Shown piece by piece: positions 3,220 to 60,248 of a DNA stretch of 60,248 nt. Below the pieces are notes generated by a model. The model had not been told where the DNA came from. It made no database searches and saw nothing but the letters and a program-made list of their open reading frames with translations. The DNA comes from Fimbriimonadaceae bacterium (GTDB lineage Bacteria > Armatimonadota > Fimbriimonadia > Fimbriimonadales > Fimbriimonadaceae), in NCBI GenBank assembly GCA_020847855.1, contig JADLBH010000020.1, forward strand, positions 1 to 60,248. The letters are read 5' to 3'. The first letter of the stretch is position 1. Every line of letters starts with the position of its first letter. The position numbers were made by a program, and so were the translations under genes.

Positions 3220-3861
3220 ATGAAGAACCGCTTCCCAACTCTCACCTATCTCGTCGTTGCCGTGGTCGTCGTGGCTGCCGTGCTCGCTGCGGTCGGCTTC
3301 CAGACTCCACAGTCCAAGTTTGGCGTCATTGACATTGACAAAGTCGTGTTCGACAGTCAGCTTGGAAAAAAGAACGCGGGCAAGCTCGATAACGCGGTGA
3401 AGGCCCGTCAGGCTCTGCTCGACTTCATCGAGTCGAACCGCGTGGCTACCGTGGAGCAGCTTCAAAAGCTGAGGGCCCTCGCGCTCAAGGCAGAACCGAC
3501 CGCGGCCGACAAGACCGAACTCGACAAGGTGAAGGGCGAGATCACCCAGTCCACGAAGGAGTTCGACGTCTTGAACCAAAAGGCGAGCCCGAGCGATACC
3601 GAGCGGATGTCGCTACAAGAGTACAACACCCGGCGACAGAACACCACGGCCATGATGCAAGAGTGGTCCGGTTCTTTCCAAGAGGAGCTCTACACGATGC
3701 GCGAACAGATGGTGAACGACTCGATCAAGGCGGCCGAGGTTGTGATCAAGGAGGTCTGCAAGCAGCAAGGCTATGACGTCGTGTTCTCTTCCAAGAGCGC
3801 CCTCTATGCAGCCAACGACCTCACGGAGGCAGTCATCAAAGCCCTCGATGCCAAGTCGTAG
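3220..3861 (+). CDS. skp: OmpH/Skp family periplasmic chaperone
   Basis: Holds unfolded outer-membrane proteins in the periplasm on their way to BamA. The N-terminus is one hydrophobic export segment (about 8-28), followed by KFGVIDIDKVVFDSQLGKKN, the usual start of the OmpH domain. A long charged, coiled-coil helical section (50-170) ends in a short beta region (QGYDVVFSSKSALYA), matching the tentacle-and-body design of Skp. Length 213 aa is normal for the family. Its 3' end overlaps the next gene by 14 bp, so translation is probably coupled. Confidence 0.9.
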   Translation: MKNRFPTLTYLVVAVVVVAAVLAAVGFQTPQSKFGVIDIDKVVFDSQLGKKNAGKLDNAVKARQALLDFIESNRVATVEQLQKLRALALKAEPTAADKTELDKVKGEITQSTKEFDVLNQKASPSDTERMSLQEYNTRRQNTTAMMQEWSGSFQEELYTMREQMVNDSIKAAEVVIKEVCKQQGYDVVFSSKSALYAANDLTEAVIKALDAKS

Positions 3862-4786
3862 CCCCTGGGTCGGAGTCGCACTGCTCGTGGTAGCGGGCTG
3901 TTCACCGGCCGGGACCGGGTTGGCCAAGGTTTCGTCCAGGATCGAGGCGGCTCCAAGGTCGGTGCCGCCGCGCCAAGTTACGCTCAGCGTGCAGGGCGAT
4001 TCCAGCACGATCGAGGGGGCGCCCGAGTTCAGATTCGGGCGCCCTGCGGGGAGTTCCGTGGTCCTTGTATCGAGCGATGGAGACTGGGCGGAGACGGAAC
4101 GGGAGGCGCTCGCCGAGGTCGAGCGCGACAGCAGGCGCCTTCGCCAAGAGCTGGATCGTGAAGTTGCCGCCGACTTCGACCAAGTCTACGACCGGATCCA
4201 TGCAATGTTCGTCGCCCAGGCTCCGCCGGTCGGCGAGGATTGGAAGGAGATCGCTTTCCTCGTCGGGTTTCCGGACCCTGGCGAGCCGCGAGTCCCTGCG
4301 ACAGAAGGCACGATGAAGGCCCTCGAAGAGGCAGCGGCGAAACTTGCGCGAGCACGGATCGGTGAGGCCGCAGACCGGTTCCGATCCGAGGTGCTGACCC
4401 TTCTTGAGGAGGCGAGGGGCCGCCGCCGCACGAAGCAGACCGAGCTCGAGGTTCAGATCGCGCTGATGAAGGACGAGGCCCTACGGAAAGCCCGCGAACA
4501 GAGCGTGGAACGGCGCGCCCAACTCGTGGAAGTTGCGAGCGACTTGGGCAACATCGGGGTGAGGATTCCAGCTTCACCCGGCACGAAGGGGCATGTGCCA
4601 ACGTTGAGCTACGTCGGGCCTGCGTGGCCGCCCGTCCCCAGGAAGGGATGGCGCTTCTCGCAACGGGAGGCGCGGCTTCAGCGGCTTTTCTTGGCATTGC
4701 GGGGCCGACGACCGACCGCGAGTGCCCGCGAGGACCTCACGCAGGAGTACCACCATTGGGCTGGCCCGTCGAAGGCTGGACGCTAG
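3848..4786 (+). CDS. Predicted lipoprotein with coiled-coil domain
   Basis: I do not recognise a named family. With the ATG at 3848 the product is 312 aa and begins with a short signal ending in the lipobox LLVVAGC, so it is probably a lipid-anchored envelope protein. Residues about 70-240 are rich in Glu, Arg and Ala and predicted coiled coil (for example [18 protein letters not shown]). The C-terminal 60 residues are basic and proline-rich. An in-frame start at 3773 would hide the lipobox inside the protein, so the later start is preferred. It overlaps skp by 14 bp and lpxD by 31 bp, placing it inside the envelope operon; a role in outer-membrane assembly is inference. Confidence 0.7.
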
Positions 4787-5733
4787 GGGAGATCTCAGGG
4801 ATCGTCGGCGGGGTGGAGTCCGGCGGAGTCGGAACCCAATACCTTCGCCCGGTTCCGGTGGACGCAGCGGACCCAGAGGGCGTTGCCTTTGCGGAGAGTG
4901 CGGCCTTCCTCGAGATCGCTCGCGACTCTGGGGTGGGGGCGGTTCTGATCCCGCCCGATGCCGAATACGACCGACCCTGCGTCCGAGTGCCGGCTCCCAG
5001 GCTCGCTTTCCTAGCCCTTCTCTCAGCGTACGCAGATCGTCGCCCGGCGGCTTTGGGCGTCGCGGAGACCGCCATCGTTTCGCCCGACGCCGTGCTCGAA
5101 CCTGGTGTCACGATGGGGCCGGGTTGCGTGATCGGTCCGGGATGCCGGGTGGGCGGGGGCACCGTGCTCGGACCTCACGTGACCCTAGTTGAGGATGTGA
5201 GGATCGGAGCTCGCTGTCGGATTCATGCCGGTACCGTGATAGGGGCGGACGGGTTTGGCTTCTTCTGGGACGGGGCACGTCATGTGAAGATCCCGCAGGT
5301 CGGCGGCGTGTTGATCGGTGACGACGTCGAGATCGGAGCGAACTGCTGCATTGACCGAGCCACATGCGGGGATACCATGATCGGTTCAGGTACGAAAATT
5401 GACAACCTTGTACAAATCGGACACAACTCCAGGATTGGGAACCACGTCGTGATTGCGGGTTGCACGGCCATCGCCGGCAGTGTGACGCTAGGCGACGGTG
5501 TGGTGATCGGGGGACTGACCGCGGTCTCCGACCACGTGAACATCGGTCCCGGTGCGCGGATCGGCGGGATGACGGGAGTGACCAAGGACGTCACCGAGGC
5601 CGGGGACTATTTTGGTATCCCCGCTCGGCCAGCGCGGGAGCATATGCGGATCCTCGCCTTGACCAACCGGCTACGGGGCCTTTTCGACCGCGTGGACAGG
5701 ATCGAAGGGAGCAAACAAGATCGCCTGGACTGA
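4756..5733 (+). CDS. lpxD: UDP-3-O-acylglucosamine N-acyltransferase
   Basis: Third step of lipid A synthesis: N-acylation of UDP-3-O-acylglucosamine. An N-terminal uridine-binding domain (about 1-100) is followed by left-handed beta-helix hexapeptide repeats ([20 protein letters not shown], then many more to residue 290) and a C-terminal helix. The catalytic His is in [11 protein letters not shown] start at 4624 would add 44 residues with no family counterpart. TTG 4756 gives [18 protein letters not shown], the usual LpxD N-terminus, and has AGGAG at 4743-4747 with an 8-nt spacer. The 326-aa product is close to the family norm. It overlaps lpxC by 14 bp. Confidence 0.92.
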
Positions 5734-6535
5734 GTTCACCCGCACGACCGTTGCAGACGAGGTTCGATTCTCCGGCCTTGGCTTGCACTCCGGCGCTCCG
5801 GTCGAGATCGTCGTCGCACCCTATGAAAACGGGATCGAGTTTTCGGCAGGATCGGTCCGGGTTCGTGCCAACCCCGAGAACGTCACGGACACGTCCCGCT
5901 GTACCTGCCTTGGTCCGGTTCAGACAGTCGAGCACCTCCTCAGCGCGCTCGCGGGTCTCGGGGTGAGCGATGCCTTGGTCCATGTCCAGGGGCCTGAGCT
6001 GCCCGCGCTCGATGGATCGAGCCGGGAGTATGCATCGGCTGTGGCGGCGGTCGGGAAACGGGCTCTTTCCGCGGCGAGAATCCACGGACTGTTCGAGCGG
6101 TGCTTCGCCGTCAGCGGCGAGGCGCGCGTCGCGATCGGCGCGGGAACCGGTCACTGGCGGTACGACTTCGAGTGCGGCGAGCGATGGCCTCACTCCCAGA
6201 CCTTCGAGGCAAGCCTCGATCCCGCGACCTATCCAGGGCAGGTCTCGGGGGCACGAACGTTTGCCTTTGAGGAGGAGGTGGCTCCCCTGCGGGCTGCGGG
6301 ACTGGGGCAGGGCCTGGACGAGACCTCGTGCTTGATCCTGGGCCAGGAGGGGTATCTGAACAAGCCACGTTGGCACGACGAGCCAGCTCGCCATAAGCTG
6401 CTGGACTTGGTAGGCGACCTCTCCTTGGCCGGAGTGCCGGTCACCCTCCTGAACGTGGTGGCGGTGCGCAGCGGGCACGCGCTCAATGTCGAGGCCGCTC
6501 GTCGGCTTTCGGCACAAGTGACAATCGAGACCTAG
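5720..6535 (+). CDS. lpxC: UDP-3-O-acyl-N-acetylglucosamine deacetylase, apparent ATC start
   Basis: Zinc-dependent committed step of lipid A synthesis. Zinc ligands are visible as [14 protein letters not shown] (first His) and [14 protein letters not shown] (His and Asp), with the late motif [14 protein letters not shown]. The domain begins at about [20 protein letters not shown], which lies upstream of the first TTG in frame (5783). No ATG, GTG or TTG exists between the upstream in-frame stop (5660) and 5783. ATC at 5720 sits 8 nt after AAGGGAG (5705-5711) and gives a 271-aa protein with a normal N-terminus. An ATC start is therefore likely; loss of a base from a normal start is the alternative. 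Overlaps lpxD, so probably coupled. Confidence 0.88.
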
Positions 6536-56089: not shown

Positions 56090-56214
56090 TGGTGGAGATG
56101 ATGGGATTCGAACCCACGACCTCTGCAGTGCGATGACCGTTTTGAAGGTCAATCTAAATGAAAACAGCCAATTTTGAACCTAAATGACCTCTGCAGTTGC
56201 GAACTGCAGTGGTC
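56090..56214 (-). mobile_element. Left attachment-like unit: tRNA-Ala(CGC) 3' half plus inverted repeat
   Basis: Minus-strand reading of 56090-56135 is the tRNA-Ala 3' half: anticodon loop ending TCGCAC, 3' anticodon stem TGCAG, T arm GTGGG-TTCGAAT-CCCAT, acceptor CATCTCC, A73 and CCA. U70 implies the G3-U70 alanine identity pair. The 5' half is absent. At 56186-56214 follows an inverted repeat (GACCTCTGCAGTT, 3 nt, AACTGCAGTGGTC; 12 of 13 pairs). The same unit recurs at 59974-60098 with identical spacing. Such 3'-tRNA duplications are typical integrase attachment sites. Confidence 0.85.
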
Positions 56215-56286: not shown

Positions 56287-56308
56287 CGATTAAAGAATCG
56301 TTTAATCG
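56287..56308 (+). promoter_or_regulatory. Palindromic operator of the ArsR-family repressor
   Basis: Arms CGATTAAA and TTTAATCG, perfectly complementary, around GAATCG. It ends 3 bp before the repressor ATG (56312). AT-rich 8-bp arms with a 6-bp centre fit ArsR/SmtB operators, so the repressor probably controls its own operon from here. Confidence 0.75.
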
Positions 56309-56311
56309 TGT

Positions 56312-56698
56312 ATGCCGACCGGAAAGAAGTCCAGCGTAGAGACCCTTCGATGCGACGCCTATAACGACGACCCTTTGCGCGTGGCGCGGGTGGCGAAGCG
56401 AATGCCGGACCGGGAGTGGATCGAGGCTTCGGCCAGGCGGCTGGCGGCCATCGGGCACCCGGTGCGGGCGACGATCCTCTCCGCCATCGGCATCGAGCCG
56501 CTCTGCGTTTGCGAGCTGAGTGCGCTCTTAGGAATGTCCTCCCCCGCGCTGATGCACCACTTGAGGATTCTAGGTGGGGCGCGGGTGATCGAGGTGCGGA
56601 AGGAGGGCAAGTTCGCGGTTTACAGCCCGACGGATCCCTCGGCGCTCGCCGCGCTCGAAGCGGCCTCAGCAGACAGAATTCCATTGGAGGTGGCTTAG
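56312..56698 (+). CDS. ArsR/SmtB-family metal-sensing repressor
   Basis: 128 aa. Winged helix core: LAAIGHPVRATILSAIGIEPLCVCELSALLGMSSPALMHHLRILGGARVI (cited by its ends). The ELCVCDL-type motif is present as LCVCEL, the alpha-3 metal site of ArsR/CadC. An N-terminal Cys in VETLRCDAYNDDPLRVARV matches the extra ligand region of CadC/CmtR-type sensors for soft metals. Metal binding would release the operator just upstream. Its stop abuts the MerT gene ATG, so it leads the operon. Confidence 0.9.
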   Translation: MPTGKKSSVETLRCDAYNDDPLRVARVAKRMPDREWIEASARRLAAIGHPVRATILSAIGIEPLCVCELSALLGMSSPALMHHLRILGGARVIEVRKEGKFAVYSPTDPSALAALEAASADRIPLEVA

Positions 56699-57301
56699 AT
56701 GAAGACCGTTGTTTCTTACATCGGCACGGCGGTGGCGGCGCTCGCGGCCTCGGCGTGTTGCTGGATTCCGGCGCTGCTCGGCGCGGGGGCAGCAGGCTCA
56801 CTCGGGATTTCAGCGGCGCTCGCCCCCTGGCGTCCCTATCTACTCGTGTTGACTGGGCTTTTTTTGACCGCAGGCTTTTGGATGGTCTATCGTCGGCCCA
56901 AGTCGGATTGCTGCGACTCGGGTGGCTGCGCGACGCCGGCTGCAAGAACCCGCCGCCGGATCAACATCGGGGTGATGTGGTCGATTGCCGCCTTCTCGCT
57001 CGCCATGGCGGCATACCCAGAGGTTCAAGCAATGCGTTCTCGAGCTTCGCACGCGGCCGAAGCACCCGTAATGGCAGCGGCTTCGCGCGAGGTGGTCTTG
57101 GCGGTCAAAGGCATGGATTGCGAGGCGTGCGCGGCACCCATTGAGGAGAACCTGAAGCAGGTTCCAGGGGTCGTTTTCGCGCGAGTGGATTATCCCAAGG
57201 CTCGCGCGGTCGTTGGGCTCGGAAGACCGGAGCCGACACAAGCTGCGCTCATCGAGGCTGTGAAGAAAAGCGGATTTGAAGCGACAGTAACGAAACTCTA
57301 A
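56699..57301 (+). CDS. Mercury-type transporter MerT fused to HMA domain (MerTP)
   Basis: 200 aa. The MerT part (1-115) has three membrane helices, the first with the vicinal Cys pair (AALAASACCWIPALLGAG) and a loop with the second site (KSDCCDSGGC). The C-terminal part (about 130-200) is an HMA domain with VKGMDCEACAAPIEENLKQVPGV. It moves Hg(II) or a similar soft cation to the cytoplasm by thiol exchange. All Cys positions are normal here. GGAGG at 56686-56690 is 8 nt from the ATG. No merA is in the island, so import would need another detoxifying step. Confidence 0.9.
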   Translation: MKTVVSYIGTAVAALAASACCWIPALLGAGAAGSLGISAALAPWRPYLLVLTGLFLTAGFWMVYRRPKSDCCDSGGCATPAARTRRRINIGVMWSIAAFSLAMAAYPEVQAMRSRASHAAEAPVMAAASREVVLAVKGMDCEACAAPIEENLKQVPGVVFARVDYPKARAVVGLGRPEPTQAALIEAVKKSGFEATVTKL

Positions 57302-57311
57302 CGGAGGAAAC

Positions 57312-57830
57312 ATGATGAAGACACTGACATTGGTCCTGCTCGCTGTGGCAGGCATTTACGGACAGGCGGGCAAAGCCCCGCAAGAGCACCCGAAGCCCGT
57401 GCCGGTGACGCTGGCTATTTCGGGAATGACGTGAGGGGGTTGTTCGGCCGCGGCGCGGTCGGCAATCGCCGGGACGAAGGGATGCGAGACCCCAGTGGAA
57501 GTAAGCCTGGAAGAGGGGAGCGCAAGATTTAAGTTGGACGCGTGTTGTACGCCGCTCCAAGCCCCCATCAAGGCAGTGGAAGGCGCTCACCGAGGCAGCT
57601 TTAAGGCCCAGCTGCTGCTGCAAACAGAGGGCTCTCCGGGCGCGCGGTGGAGCAAGGCTCGCGAAGGGATCGCGAGGGTCGAAGGCGTGAAGGCGGTTTC
57701 GGAACCCGACAAGGTCGGATTTTTCAAGGTCGCCCTCGATACCAGCAAAACAACGCTTCTGATAGACCTCGTGAAGGCGGCCAAGGAGGCGGGCGTTGTT
57801 GTCCGCGATCCGAAGCGCGCAGCGCGGTGA
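57312..57830 (+). CDS. MerP-like periplasmic HMA protein with predicted selenocysteine
   Basis: 172 aa when the UGA at 57432-57434 is read as Sec. Signal peptide (TLTLVLLAVAGIYG), then an HMA domain whose metal motif is SGM-T-U-GGC: the UGA sits exactly at the first Cys of GMTCxxC. The frame continues with normal codons to a UGA stop at 57828. A second, degenerate HMA-like half follows (about 100-172, GIARVEGVKAVSEPDKVGFFKVALD). A hairpin (57444-57462) lies at bacterial SECIS distance. GGAGG (57303-57307) precedes tandem ATGs 57312 and 57315; the second has the better spacing. Sec-containing MerP proteins are known from surveys. If Sec is not made, the gene would give only a 40-aa peptide. 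Confidence 0.85.
57444..57462 (+). promoter_or_regulatory. Putative bacterial SECIS hairpin in the merP-like gene
   Basis: TCGGCC pairs with GGTCGG (two G-U pairs) around loop GCGGCGC. The loop opens with G, 16 nt after the UGA, inside the usual window for SelB binding. Confidence 0.6.
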
Positions 57831-57855
57831 GGTCGAACTTGGCGTAATTCAGCAC

Positions 57856-57890
57856 GCCCCCTCCGTCCGGTCCAAAAAGCTGGAGGGGGC
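57856..57890 (+). promoter_or_regulatory. Strong intercistronic hairpin
   Basis: GCCCCCTCC pairs perfectly with GGAGGGGGC (9 bp) around a 17-nt loop, between the MerP-like stop (57830) and the AhpD-like start (57910). No T-run follows, so it is not an intrinsic terminator; an mRNA-stability or processing element is more likely. Confidence 0.6.
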
Positions 57891-57909
57891 CAATACAACA
57901 GGAGAACAA

Positions 57910-58275
57910 ATGAACAACCAATTGACAGACATCGAACCTGCTTACGAGCACTTGACGGACTTCGCTAAAGCTACGCACGGCACGACGGGCGCGATCCAAG
58001 GGATGCGACAAAAGGCGATCTACAGCGATGGAGCGCTATCGTCGAAGTTCAAGACTCTCGGGGCGCTGCTTTGGTCCATCAGCGCGCGCTGCGAGCCTTG
58101 CGTGAAATATTACGCCCTGAAGTCGCGCGAGATGGGTGTGACCGAAGAGGAGATTGGCGAGATCGGCGCGCTGGCCTCGACAATGGGAGGCTGCGTAGGA
58201 GAGACCTGGGGATTAAAGGCGTATGCGGCTTTTAAGGAGGCGAGTCCGGCGGATGAAGAGTGCTGCGCGGTCTGA
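57910..58275 (+). CDS. AhpD-like (carboxymuconolactone decarboxylase family) protein
   Basis: 121 aa from ATG 57910, AGGAG 5 nt upstream. CMD-domain redox motif ARCEPCVKYYALKSREMGVTEEEIGE (Cys-x2-Cys) and a C-terminal Cys-rich end ASPADEECCAV, which looks like a metal or thiol site. AhpD-type proteins reduce peroxides or alkyl-thiols with two redox Cys. A longer in-frame start at 57796 would run through the upstream hairpin. Both Cys of the motif are ordinary Cys here. It belongs to the same operon. Confidence 0.83.
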   Translation: MNNQLTDIEPAYEHLTDFAKATHGTTGAIQGMRQKAIYSDGALSSKFKTLGALLWSISARCEPCVKYYALKSREMGVTEEEIGEIGALASTMGGCVGETWGLKAYAAFKEASPADEECCAV

Positions 58276-58338
58276 CGACCTGCGCGCCACCGGAGTCGGC
58301 CGTGGCACCAAACTCCGGCCCCGCCCGTTCTAAACGAT

Positions 58339-59163
58339 ATGATTGCCATCTTGCTCACCGCCGTCATGCAATCCGATCTTCCCGATCAATCCAAGGTCGC
58401 CGCCGCCTTTAATGCCGCCAAAGGCAAGGTGCGCGTCGTCATGCTCGTGTCCCCGACCTGAGGGGAGTGCGTTCATGGCGCGGACGTGATCCGCGACGAC
58501 GTGGTCCTCAAACTCAAAGACAAGCGCCTGGCGGCGTTCTCGGTCTATATTCCCATGGTTCCAGGTGATTCCGATAAACCGGCGGTCGAAGCCGCCAAGA
58601 GACTGGAGAAAGCGGGCATCAAGTCGTTCTGGGACGGCAAGCGCGAACTCGGAAAAGCCTATGCCAGTATCGTCACCCTGCCGAAGGGCCGAACCATAGC
58701 GTGGGACATCTATTTCGTTTACGGGCCTGATGCGGTATGGGGCCGGACGCCTCCAAAGCCGGTCTACTGGATGCATCAGCTCGCCGTTGACGACAAATGC
58801 CTCGACGGGACAAAGTTCCGCGTAGCGGTGAAGAAGGAACTCGACGCCATGAAGCAAACGAAGCACTTGGTTCTCCTGACTCGGGATGGCTGTACAGGTA
58901 CGGTGACGATGAAGGCAAACCTCGACGCCGCTGTCAAGAAGCTCAAAGGCTGGGATTACGAAATCGTCGACCTCGACAAGCTCCCCAAGGGCGACCCTCG
59001 GAAGGGATATCCCACGCCCACCCTCCTGTTTGCTGGCAAGGACCTTTACGGCATGGCGCCACCCGCGCCTGGCACTGACTCCCCTGGGTGACGCTTGTAT
59101 TCGGGCGGAGTTCCGTCCTCTAGCGACATCGCACAGAAACTGGCAGGAACCGAGAAGAAATGA
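58339..59163 (+). CDS. Two-domain thioredoxin-like protein with two predicted selenocysteines
   Basis: 274 aa if both UGAs are Sec. U41 is in VMLVSPT-U-GEC, the redox C-x-x-C position of a thioredoxin-like domain (about 25-160). U251 is in DSPG-U-RLYSGGVPSSSDI, where I would expect a Cys-Arg-x-Tyr-x-Gly-Gly motif. The second domain (175-270) has HLVLLTRDGCTGTVTMKANLDAA and GYPTPTLLFAGKDLYGM. Both UGAs keep the same frame on either side; each has a hairpin 16-25 nt downstream. The frame ends at TGA 59161, overlapping the next ATG (ATGA), which supports reading through 59089. Without Sec, only 40 residues would be made from ATG 58339. Confidence 0.8.
58479..58495 (+). promoter_or_regulatory. 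Putative bacterial SECIS hairpin, first UGA of the thioredoxin-like gene
   Basis: CGCGGA and TCCGCG pair perfectly (6 bp) around CGTGA, a loop with G in second position. It starts 17 nt after the UGA at 58459-58461. This is the best of the four hairpins. Confidence 0.65.
59103..59118 (+). promoter_or_regulatory. Putative bacterial SECIS hairpin, second UGA of the thioredoxin-like gene
   Basis: GGGCGG pairs with CCGTCC (one G-U pair) around the tetraloop AGTT. The loop G is 19 nt after the UGA at 59089-59091, within range. Confidence 0.55.
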
Positions 59164-59833
59164 ACAAAAAGCTCCTCACAACGCTTTCCGTCCTCGTGGC
59201 GCTGACCATCAAGCTACAAGCCCAAACCACCTCCGGGTGACCCATCTGACCCGCCAGCGGATTCGCCGCACAAGGCGGAGACCCGGTCGGTTCGATCTGG
59301 ACATTAACTAGAAAGGGTCGGATATTCCTTTCGGGGATGCATTCCAAAGGTCTCGCCGGCGAGACGGAAATCTTCGTGCGCTACGGCGTCACGGATCGGC
59401 TGGAACTCGGGCTGGGCTACTTGAGGAAGCAAAACATCGTGCGTCCGCTCGTGAGCTACGTGCTTGTGCCGGAGACGGCGGCAAGGCCATCGCTCACGAC
59501 GGGCGCGATGATCGACGCGCTTGAAGATGGGCGGCAGATGGTGTTCCTCACCGTCGGCAAGAGCTTCCCGACCAAGCTGGGCGTGCCCGTCAACGTGTAC
59601 GGCGGCGTGGCCCGAGTCACCACGACCGGCGACAACCGTTGGCTGGCGGCTTGCTCGTGCCCATTGCCAGGGGGCTGAACGCCTCGGTCCAGTATGACGG
59701 GAAGTATGCGAACCTCGGGCTCGTCGCGCGAGTGGGTTCGATCAAAGGCGCACCGGTCTATTTCGGGATCGTCGCGGCCCAGGGCGACCGCTTCGGACCG
59801 CTCATCGCAACAAGCTTCCCGATAGGTCGCTGA
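59160..59833 (+). pseudogene. Outer-membrane beta-barrel protein, frame-damaged, two in-frame UGAs
   Basis: Signal peptide (KKLLTTLSVLVALTIKLQAQ). UGAs at 59238 and 59247 then give SG-U-PI-U-PASG. A barrel follows (GETEIFVRYGVTDRLELGLGYL...YVLVPETAARPSL...MVFLTVGKSFPTKLG). Near 59637 the frame stops matching; the family sequence continues one frame over (LAGGLLVPIARGLNASVQYDGKYANLGL to the stop at 59833), so one base was lost. The adjacent frame over the UGAs reads PPPGDPSDPPADSPHK, a plausible linker. Several small indels, in nature or in the assembly, may therefore explain everything. It may have been a porin for the island's substrate. Confidence 0.7.
59262..59279 (+). promoter_or_regulatory. 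Possible SECIS-like hairpin in the barrel gene
   Basis: TTCGCC pairs with GGCGGA (one G-U pair) around GCACAA. The loop G lies 19 nt after the second UGA and 28 nt after the first. Weak evidence because the gene itself is damaged. Confidence 0.3.
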
Positions 59834-59973: not shown

Positions 59974-60098
59974 TGGTGGAGATGATGGGATTCGAACCCA
60001 CGACCTCTGCAGTGCGATGTCTCTATCAACACACAAATTCGCCAAAAACGGTCGTTTTTGAACTTAATCGACCTCTGCAGTTGTACGTTGCAGTGGTC
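59974..60098 (-). mobile_element. Right attachment-like unit: tRNA-Ala(CGC) 3' half plus inverted repeat
   Basis: 59974-60019 is identical to 56090-56135 (46 bp, tRNA-Ala 3' half with CCA on the minus strand). The middle 50 bp have diverged. At 60070-60098 the inverted repeat recurs with the same spacing (left arm GACCTCTGCAGTT, right arm CGTTGCAGTGGTC, imperfect). The two units are direct repeats 3,884 bp apart and bracket the mercury/selenoprotein operon. No integrase lies between them. Confidence 0.85.
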
Positions 60099-60136
60099 GC
60101 AGGCGTGATGCCTCGTTATAGGGCAACGATTCGACG

Positions 60137-60248
60137 CTACAGTTTTGTGCTCCGTAGCCTCAGCGCATTGCCAATCACGGACACAGAACTTAAGCTCATT
60201 GCCAATGCCGCGATCATCGGACTCAGTAGAAGACCAGTGAACGGATAA
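60137..60248 (-). CDS. Heavy-metal P1B-type ATPase, C-terminal end (partial)
   Basis: Only the last 37 codons are in the window, on the minus strand, ending at TAG 60137-60139. The sequence [20 protein letters not shown] then IGNALRLRS is the invariant C-terminus of copper/soft-metal P1B ATPases (CopA/CopB type). The rest lies beyond the right edge. It is just outside the right tRNA-Ala repeat and may belong to a second, adjacent metal-resistance insert. Confidence 0.85.

Follow-up and report, generated by a model that had tools for sequence, protein, structure and literature searches.

A merA-less, selenoprotein-rich operon with mercury-transport genes in a Fimbriimonadaceae bacterium

Results and discussion

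A mer-type operon with three selenoproteins

In this work we describe a six-gene operon at positions 56312-59833 of a 60,248-nucleotide stretch of DNA from a Fimbriimonadaceae bacterium (GenBank assembly GCA_020847855.1, contig JADLBH010000020.1). The stretch as a whole is called the window; it constitutes the entire contig C20 of the source genome (G000; 2.53 Mb, 97% complete), whose closest named relatives are metagenome-assembled genomes of Armatimonadota. The operon combines a regulator and a transporter of the mercury (mer) type with three proteins that contain five selenocysteine (Sec, U) residues in total, and it does not contain merA, the gene of the enzyme held to be central to bacterial mercury detoxification. 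We lean towards reading it as an operon for the detoxification of a soft metal, most likely Hg(II), in which secreted selenoproteins take the usual place of MerA. Judged from the sequence, this set of secreted selenoproteins most likely displaced MerA or had never acquired it, and its selenols would take over or supplement the handling of the metal. A preliminary description of the same DNA had proposed a soft-metal operon rich in selenoproteins and devoid of merA, and such an operon is indeed conserved in other genomes, where its link to mer genes recurs.

The six genes run in one direction with short gaps or overlaps, as had been described. The stop of ArsR abuts the start of MerTP (56698/56699), the gaps after MerTP, Sec-HMA and AhpD are 10, 79 and 63 base pairs (bp), respectively, and the thioredoxin gene ends 4 bp into the barrel gene (ATGA at 59160-59163). 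Among the window proteins, Pfam and NCBIfam assign ArsR, MerT plus HMA, HMA and CMD/AhpD. The features of the operon are as follows.

56287-56308, + strand: perfect inverted repeat CGATTAAA-GAATCG-TTTAATCG, probable ArsR operator; similar repeats lie 5' of arsR in relatives
56312-56698, + strand: ArsR/SmtB repressor, CadC-like by its aligned cysteines
56699-57301, + strand: MerTP, a fusion of MerT (CC in the first transmembrane helix) and HMA (GMDCEAC), with Pfam domains and copies in relatives
57312-57830, + strand: secreted Sec-HMA protein (MerP-like) with TGA 57432-57434 in GMT-U-GGC; HMA model and 3' hairpin
57910-58275, + strand: AhpD/CMD-family protein (Pfam/NCBIfam) with CEPC and no Sec; the same gene is present in loci L112 and L113
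58339-59163, + strand: two-domain thioredoxin-fold double selenoprotein with TGAs 58459-58461 (U41) and 59089-59091 (U251), from homologue alignment and model
59160-59833, + strand: signal peptide plus barrel-like protein with U-P-I-U (TGAs 59238-59240 and 59247-59249); reading frame interrupted near 59640

Absence of merA and linkage to mer genes

No protein of the window genome exceeds the MerA family cut-off (best match 177.8 bits, cut-off 454), for which reason a MerA concealed elsewhere in the genome was rejected, and a search of the same genome for merB found none; the lack of both genes in the operon agrees with the preliminary description. Within Armatimonadota, MerTP was found in 16 of the 251 genomes searched, the window genome counted. 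Three of these loci (window, L032 and L033) also encode the thioredoxin-type selenoprotein, and merA is present in none of the three. merA or a merA fragment occurs in four of the 16, each time without the thioredoxin selenoprotein: in L114, merA is divergent from ArsR-MerTP-DF(Cys) and its product shows the GGTCVNxGC and C-terminal SCC hallmarks of MerA, in L115 the order ArsR-MerTP-DF(Cys) is followed by a merA fragment, and L118 and L122 carry merA. L112 and L113 consist of ArsR-MerTP-AhpD without selenoproteins, possibly the precursor arrangement.

When named genomes were scanned with the alignment of the thioredoxin family, 46 loci were obtained from Armatimonadota, Acidobacteriota, Zixibacteria, Planctomycetota, Chloroflexota, Eremiobacterota, Gemmatimonadota, Actinomycetota, Bacteroidota and others, about a dozen phyla altogether; with the relatives, 51 different loci were available. 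MerT, MerP/HMA, MerC, DF or GDCCVxC (NF041374) genes lie within 5 kb in 26 of the 51, MerR or ArsR regulators are common near the thioredoxin genes, and single open reading frames were found that encode fusions of the types MerTP-thioredoxin (L070), DF-MerT-thioredoxin (L052) and HMA-thioredoxin (L060). A tree of 50 sequences requires 12 changes of the mer label, at least eight of them on well-supported branches; thus, the mer link arose or was kept repeatedly. MerA above the family cut-off is encoded by three of the 45 searched genomes that hold the thioredoxin, and a MerA-like gene (site GGTCVNVGC) adjoins it in one of the 51 loci (L086). The enzymes with flavin adenine dinucleotide beside the thioredoxin in L051 and L065 were rejected as MerA since neither the GGTCVNxGC site nor the C-terminal CC is present in them. 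Homologous clusters with merA, the regular occurrence of which the preliminary description had named as a refutation of its proposal, give a mixed picture: they do exist among the MerTP loci of the phylum, and among the 51 thioredoxin loci a MerA-like gene adjoins the thioredoxin in the single case of L086.

Evidence that the TGA codons encode selenocysteine

The case for Sec is carried by comparative evidence. The window genome encodes SelA, SelB, SelD and tRNA-Sec (anticodon UCA); SelD (G000:C10:43359-44279) is itself read through one TGA. The first Sec site of the thioredoxin family (SPT-U-xx-C) is covered by 49 of the 51 loci, the frame-broken L072 and the truncated L089 being left out, and is occupied by U in 43, by Cys in four (two identical) and by Thr and Trp in one each. 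At the second, DF-like site, U is found in the window, L031, L033, L038 and L060, and Cys in L039, L052, L066, L074 and L077-L080. In the barrel-like family, which was detected in 45 of the 251 relatives searched, the N-terminal motif occurs as UPxU, CPLU, CPLC and CPIC, so that both positions exchange with Cys.

The five-pair stem at the thioredoxin site is 79% paired over 41 sequences, compared with 32-54% if the partner is slid by up to 4 bases, and five non-Sec homologues form 1-3 of the 5 pairs versus a mean of 3.9. Stems of the barrel genes, for example GAGCC-GGTTC-GGCTT, GCATCC-GGTT-CGGATG and GCAGCC-GGTC-CGGCTG, vary on both sides, and the Cys versions are without the stem. Single-sequence folding gave z values of -2.14 for the hairpin downstream of the Sec-HMA codon and of -1.80 for that of the window barrel gene. 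Owing to the Sec machinery, the Cys/TGA exchange and the weaker downstream hairpin in non-Sec homologues, the TGAs are beyond chance. Were they ordinary stops, each would close a short open frame and the genes would be pseudogenes or encode short proteins; because TGA and Cys replace each other at these positions in many genomes and the Sec machinery is complete, this explanation is extremely improbable and was rejected.

The individual proteins

The N domain of the thioredoxin-type protein carries SPT-U41-GEC (UxxC) and the C domain PG-U251-RLY. The frame passes the TGA at 59089, continues as PG-U-RLYSGGVPSSSDIAQKLAGTEKK and ends at the TGA 59161-59163. The Sec-containing thioredoxin-like protein of the preliminary description was recognised correctly as to its Sec, and its extent had to be revised, since it runs to 59163 and has a second Sec. 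The predicted model (pLDDT 94.4) consists of two thioredoxin-like domains, of which the N domain resembles the extracytoplasmic reductases ResA, DsbE and TlpA (Z up to 13.4 over 132 residues, 2.7 A, low identity); searches of this domain against Pfam and NCBIfam gave no match. The C domain is related to NF049942, the 'DF family (seleno)protein', through an iterated profile and through locus L078, where a free-standing homologue (3818-4138) scores 105 bits (curated cut-off 70); the window C domain alone does not match NF049942 at E<0.1 and stays below this cut-off. Several thioredoxin homologues possess signal-peptide-like N-termini. In the Zixibacterial L078, the thioredoxin selenoprotein (5182-6474) is fused C-terminal to a DUF3887-like domain.

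In the barrel-like protein, the two TGAs lie within SG-U-PI-U-PASG (UPIU, 59238-59249) right after a signal-peptide-like stretch. A barrel protein had been listed before and is present; what had escaped notice are its two Sec residues and the break in its frame. Pfam and NCBIfam searches returned no match for the family, only DUF5777 at E=0.22, and its designation as a barrel is putative. A second copy (CPLU) exists in the window genome (G000:C37:101696-102286; L131, L138), the protein of L033 ends with an aromatic residue (GYRF), and a look at the barrel genes outside the mer operon found no conserved neighbours. The Zixibacterial mer loci L074 (3353), L078 (4183) and L080 (4187) have their own barrel-like protein with AQ-U-AL-U-STPN right after the signal peptide. 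AlphaFold gave a pLDDT of 27 and no usable fold model for the Zixibacterial protein, which may be unrelated to the Armatimonad one except for the N-terminal UxxU.

The TGA of Sec-HMA sits at the metal-site Cys of HMA, as seen from the alignment of GMTUGGC to the HMA model. Matches in L051, L058 and L065 were not counted; the U of L051 turned out on checking to be a terminal stop only. AhpD is a Cys protein (CEPC) and resembles the arsenic-linked families NF041537 and TIGR04169. It was rejected as a constant partner because it is present only in the window, L112 and L113.

Regulator, operator and the probable metal

Among solved structures, the window ArsR is nearest to CadC (1u2w), a Cd/Pb-sensing repressor. 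In the alignment to 1u2w, the alpha3N ligands C7, C58 and C60 of CadC are matched by the N-terminal C14 and by LCVC, whereas the position of CadC C11 is Asn, and the metal bound by the window ArsR is putative. The stretches RCDAYNDDPxRVxRV and EPLCVCEL are common to the ArsR proteins of Armatimonadota MerTP loci. The inverted repeat was found again 5' of arsR in L032, L112 and L115; L033 and L114 have half of it or a variant there. MerTP scores 40.9 bits with PF02411 (cut-off 32.9), has ASACC in its first transmembrane helix and contains an HMA domain that also exceeds its Pfam cut-off; with 88.6 bits it is below the cut-off of 180 for the NCBIfam MerTP equivalog. Copies in relatives are 51-64% identical. 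The shared CadC-like ArsR, the similar palindromic operator and MerTP in merA-bearing relatives point to Hg(II) as the signal of the operon. Our best argument for this metal is that regulator and operator are common to merA operons and selenoprotein operons.

An operon for another soft element (Cd/Pb, As/Sb or Cu), in which MerTP transports soft metals in general, would be in line with the proximity of ArsR to CadC, with the arsenic-linked relatives of AhpD and with metal ATPase and YHS-type genes on the next contig or island. We consider it unlikely, as the same type of ArsR, a similar operator and MerTP adjoin MerA in L114 and a merA fragment in L115, and as the MerR regulators of other loci (L052, L074, L076 and L078-L080) resemble Hg/Pb MerR proteins in the spacing of three Cys residues. 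In the Zixibacterial L074, L078 and L080 this spacing is C-(about 35)-C-(8)-C, as in Hg/Pb sensors.

A possible mechanism and its alternatives

In the detoxification of Hg(II) envisaged here, the CadC-like ArsR repressor would bind the metal and leave its palindromic operator, and MerTP, with its vicinal-Cys MerT part and its HMA domain, would act at the inner membrane, capturing and moving the metal. Three extracytoplasmic proteins, namely Sec-HMA, the UxxC thioredoxin that carries the DF-like domain and the UPxU barrel protein (if intact), would then bind the metal through their selenols and either pass it among themselves or hold it as Hg-selenolate, which would make reduction to Hg(0) unnecessary; AhpD would act as an accessory thiol protein. 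An extracytoplasmic location of the selenols is probable because Sec-HMA, the barrel protein and several thioredoxin homologues have signal-peptide-like N-termini. The suggestion of the preliminary description that metal taken up is handled by selenol/thiol proteins is, in view of this location, hypothetical. Hg(II) is bound more strongly by selenolates than by thiolates, and therefore a periplasmic chain of these three proteins could trap the metal.

Several points weigh against this reading. MerA and the thioredoxin are both missing from nine of the 16 MerTP loci of the phylum, so that the absence of merA alone is not special, and the import of mercury without MerA would carry a risk. CadC-type sites sense Cd, Pb, Bi and Zn as well. 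In 25 of the 51 thioredoxin loci (six of them with little flanking DNA) no mer gene is nearby; thus, the thioredoxin protein works elsewhere too. The barrel family is found mostly outside mer loci, and in the window its frame shifts near 59640, with homologous sequence resuming in another frame up to 59833; this may be a sequencing or assembly error or a genuine break. Only one further TGA copy of Sec-HMA was found, the decayed GMTUGG of L033. Finally, in single-sequence energies the two thioredoxin hairpins of the window (z 0.65 and -0.74), i.e. two of the four tested, are not unusual.

The selenoproteins might alternatively serve redox repair: a periplasmic UxxC thioredoxin would reduce or isomerise disulfides and strip metal from damaged thiols, and resistance would come from transport or from another locus. 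Since the N domain has the ResA/TlpA/DsbE-like fold of thiol-disulfide reductases and half of the loci are not mer loci, repair is equally possible as an activity of the thioredoxin, and the varied partners that adjoin the family also suit it. As an account of the operon we find it rather doubtful, because the MerTP, MerT and HMA fusions and the repeated mer linkage tie the thioredoxin to the metal itself, and the DF-like domain and Sec-HMA supply further soft ligands.

The more far-reaching form of the detoxification hypothesis, which we put forward tentatively, is a MerA-independent mercury route in which secreted selenols would accept Hg(II) either delivered by MerTP or present in the periplasm and fix it as Hg-selenolate, possibly a precursor of HgSe; a literature search for tiemannite together with selenoproteins gave nothing. 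Such a route would be a bacterial parallel to the selenium-based binding of mercury in animals and a second solution to mercury detoxification across about a dozen phyla. In bacteria it would connect the biochemistry of selenium with that of mercury, and it would be a source of very strong metal binders of use in sensing or clean-up. It would be built on two families outside Pfam and NCBIfam, the SPTUxxC/WMHQL thioredoxin and the UPxU barrel-like protein. These are two additional candidate selenoprotein families, both with clear Cys/Sec exchange, and both were missed by automatic annotation because the proteins are cut at TGA.

Relation to known systems

With merA-based mer operons the window operon shares the ArsR-type regulator, which was found in 8.1% of surveyed mer operons (PMC3466566), the vicinal-Cys MerT and the HMA/MerP domains; it differs in having three selenoproteins instead of MerA. 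Sec variants of mer proteins are known, namely the PF02411 'putative mercuric transport protein', MerT/CopZ NF045683, the UxxU metal-binding NF041115 and MerP from the GOS survey (PMC2398784, PMC13188914). As in the window, a Cys of a MerT/MerP-type protein is replaced by Sec in them, but none is found at its curated cut-off in the window, where the Sec lies in a GMTUGGC HMA protein beside two more selenoproteins. GDCCVxC is known as GOS_B (PMC2398784, PMC13188914).

The DF family NF049942 corresponds to 'hypothetical protein DF' from deep-Sep (PMC12013277, listed in PMC13188914). Its [C/U]RxY site is present in the window C domain, which aligns with the free-standing homologue of L078; in contrast to that family, the window domain forms one protein with a UxxC thioredoxin and is encoded in a mer operon. 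The N domain shares the fold of the ResA/TlpA/DsbE reductases (Z 12-13.4) and departs from them in its identity of about 9-17%, its active-site Sec, its SPTUxxC and WMHQL motifs and its lack of a Pfam match. The Sec-assisted organometallic (SAO) and Tso selenoprotein operons, which are already listed (PMC13188914), resemble the present one in their multiple selenoproteins per operon and, for SAO, in a proposed organometal role. NCBIfam models of SaoB/C/L/P/T/X and TsoA/B/C gave no match on window proteins, and the TsoR model reaches 25 bits on the window ArsR (cut-off 115).

The preliminary description had called the system undescribed. This holds for the combination: the SPTUxxC/WMHQL thioredoxin, the UPxU barrel-like family and their joint merA-less operon were not found in the literature and libraries surveyed. 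It does not hold for the components Sec-MerP, Sec-MerT, DF, SAO and Tso, which are already on record (PMC2398784, PMC13188914). Overlap with the work of Haft on selenoprotein neighbourhoods and SAO is possible, and the priority of the two families and of the operon is uncertain.

Flanking repeats and neighbouring genes

The operon is bracketed by two copies of the 3' end of tRNA-Ala(CGC), each of which is followed by a palindrome-bearing repeat of 54 bp.

56090-56135: left boundary repeat, 46-bp copy of the tRNA-Ala(CGC) 3' end
56161-56214: 54-bp palindrome-bearing repeat that adjoins the left tRNA fragment and shares 78% identity with 60045-60098
59974-60019: right boundary repeat, 46-bp copy of the tRNA-Ala(CGC) 3' end

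This arrangement looks like the insertion of a cassette at a tRNA gene; in an inspection by eye, no integrase was seen between the tRNA fragments. The boundary repeats, the barrel frameshift and the decayed Sec-HMA copy of L033 could be taken to mean that the operon is a decaying mobile cassette, damaged in part and perhaps no longer active in this strain. We regard this as quite improbable, given that the remaining five genes have open frames, that the thioredoxin is conserved at its two Sec positions and that the frameshift may be an assembly error.

The intact tRNA-Ala(CGC) is located at G000:C10:1136-1211, close to the start of contig C10, which begins with genes for a YHS-like protein and a Cys-rich secreted protein (G000:C10:3-1064, L125). 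As read by eye, the end of the window (60133-60248, - strand) looks like the C-terminal part of a heavy-metal P-type ATPase gene. Between the window and tRNA-Ala there may therefore be a second metal island.

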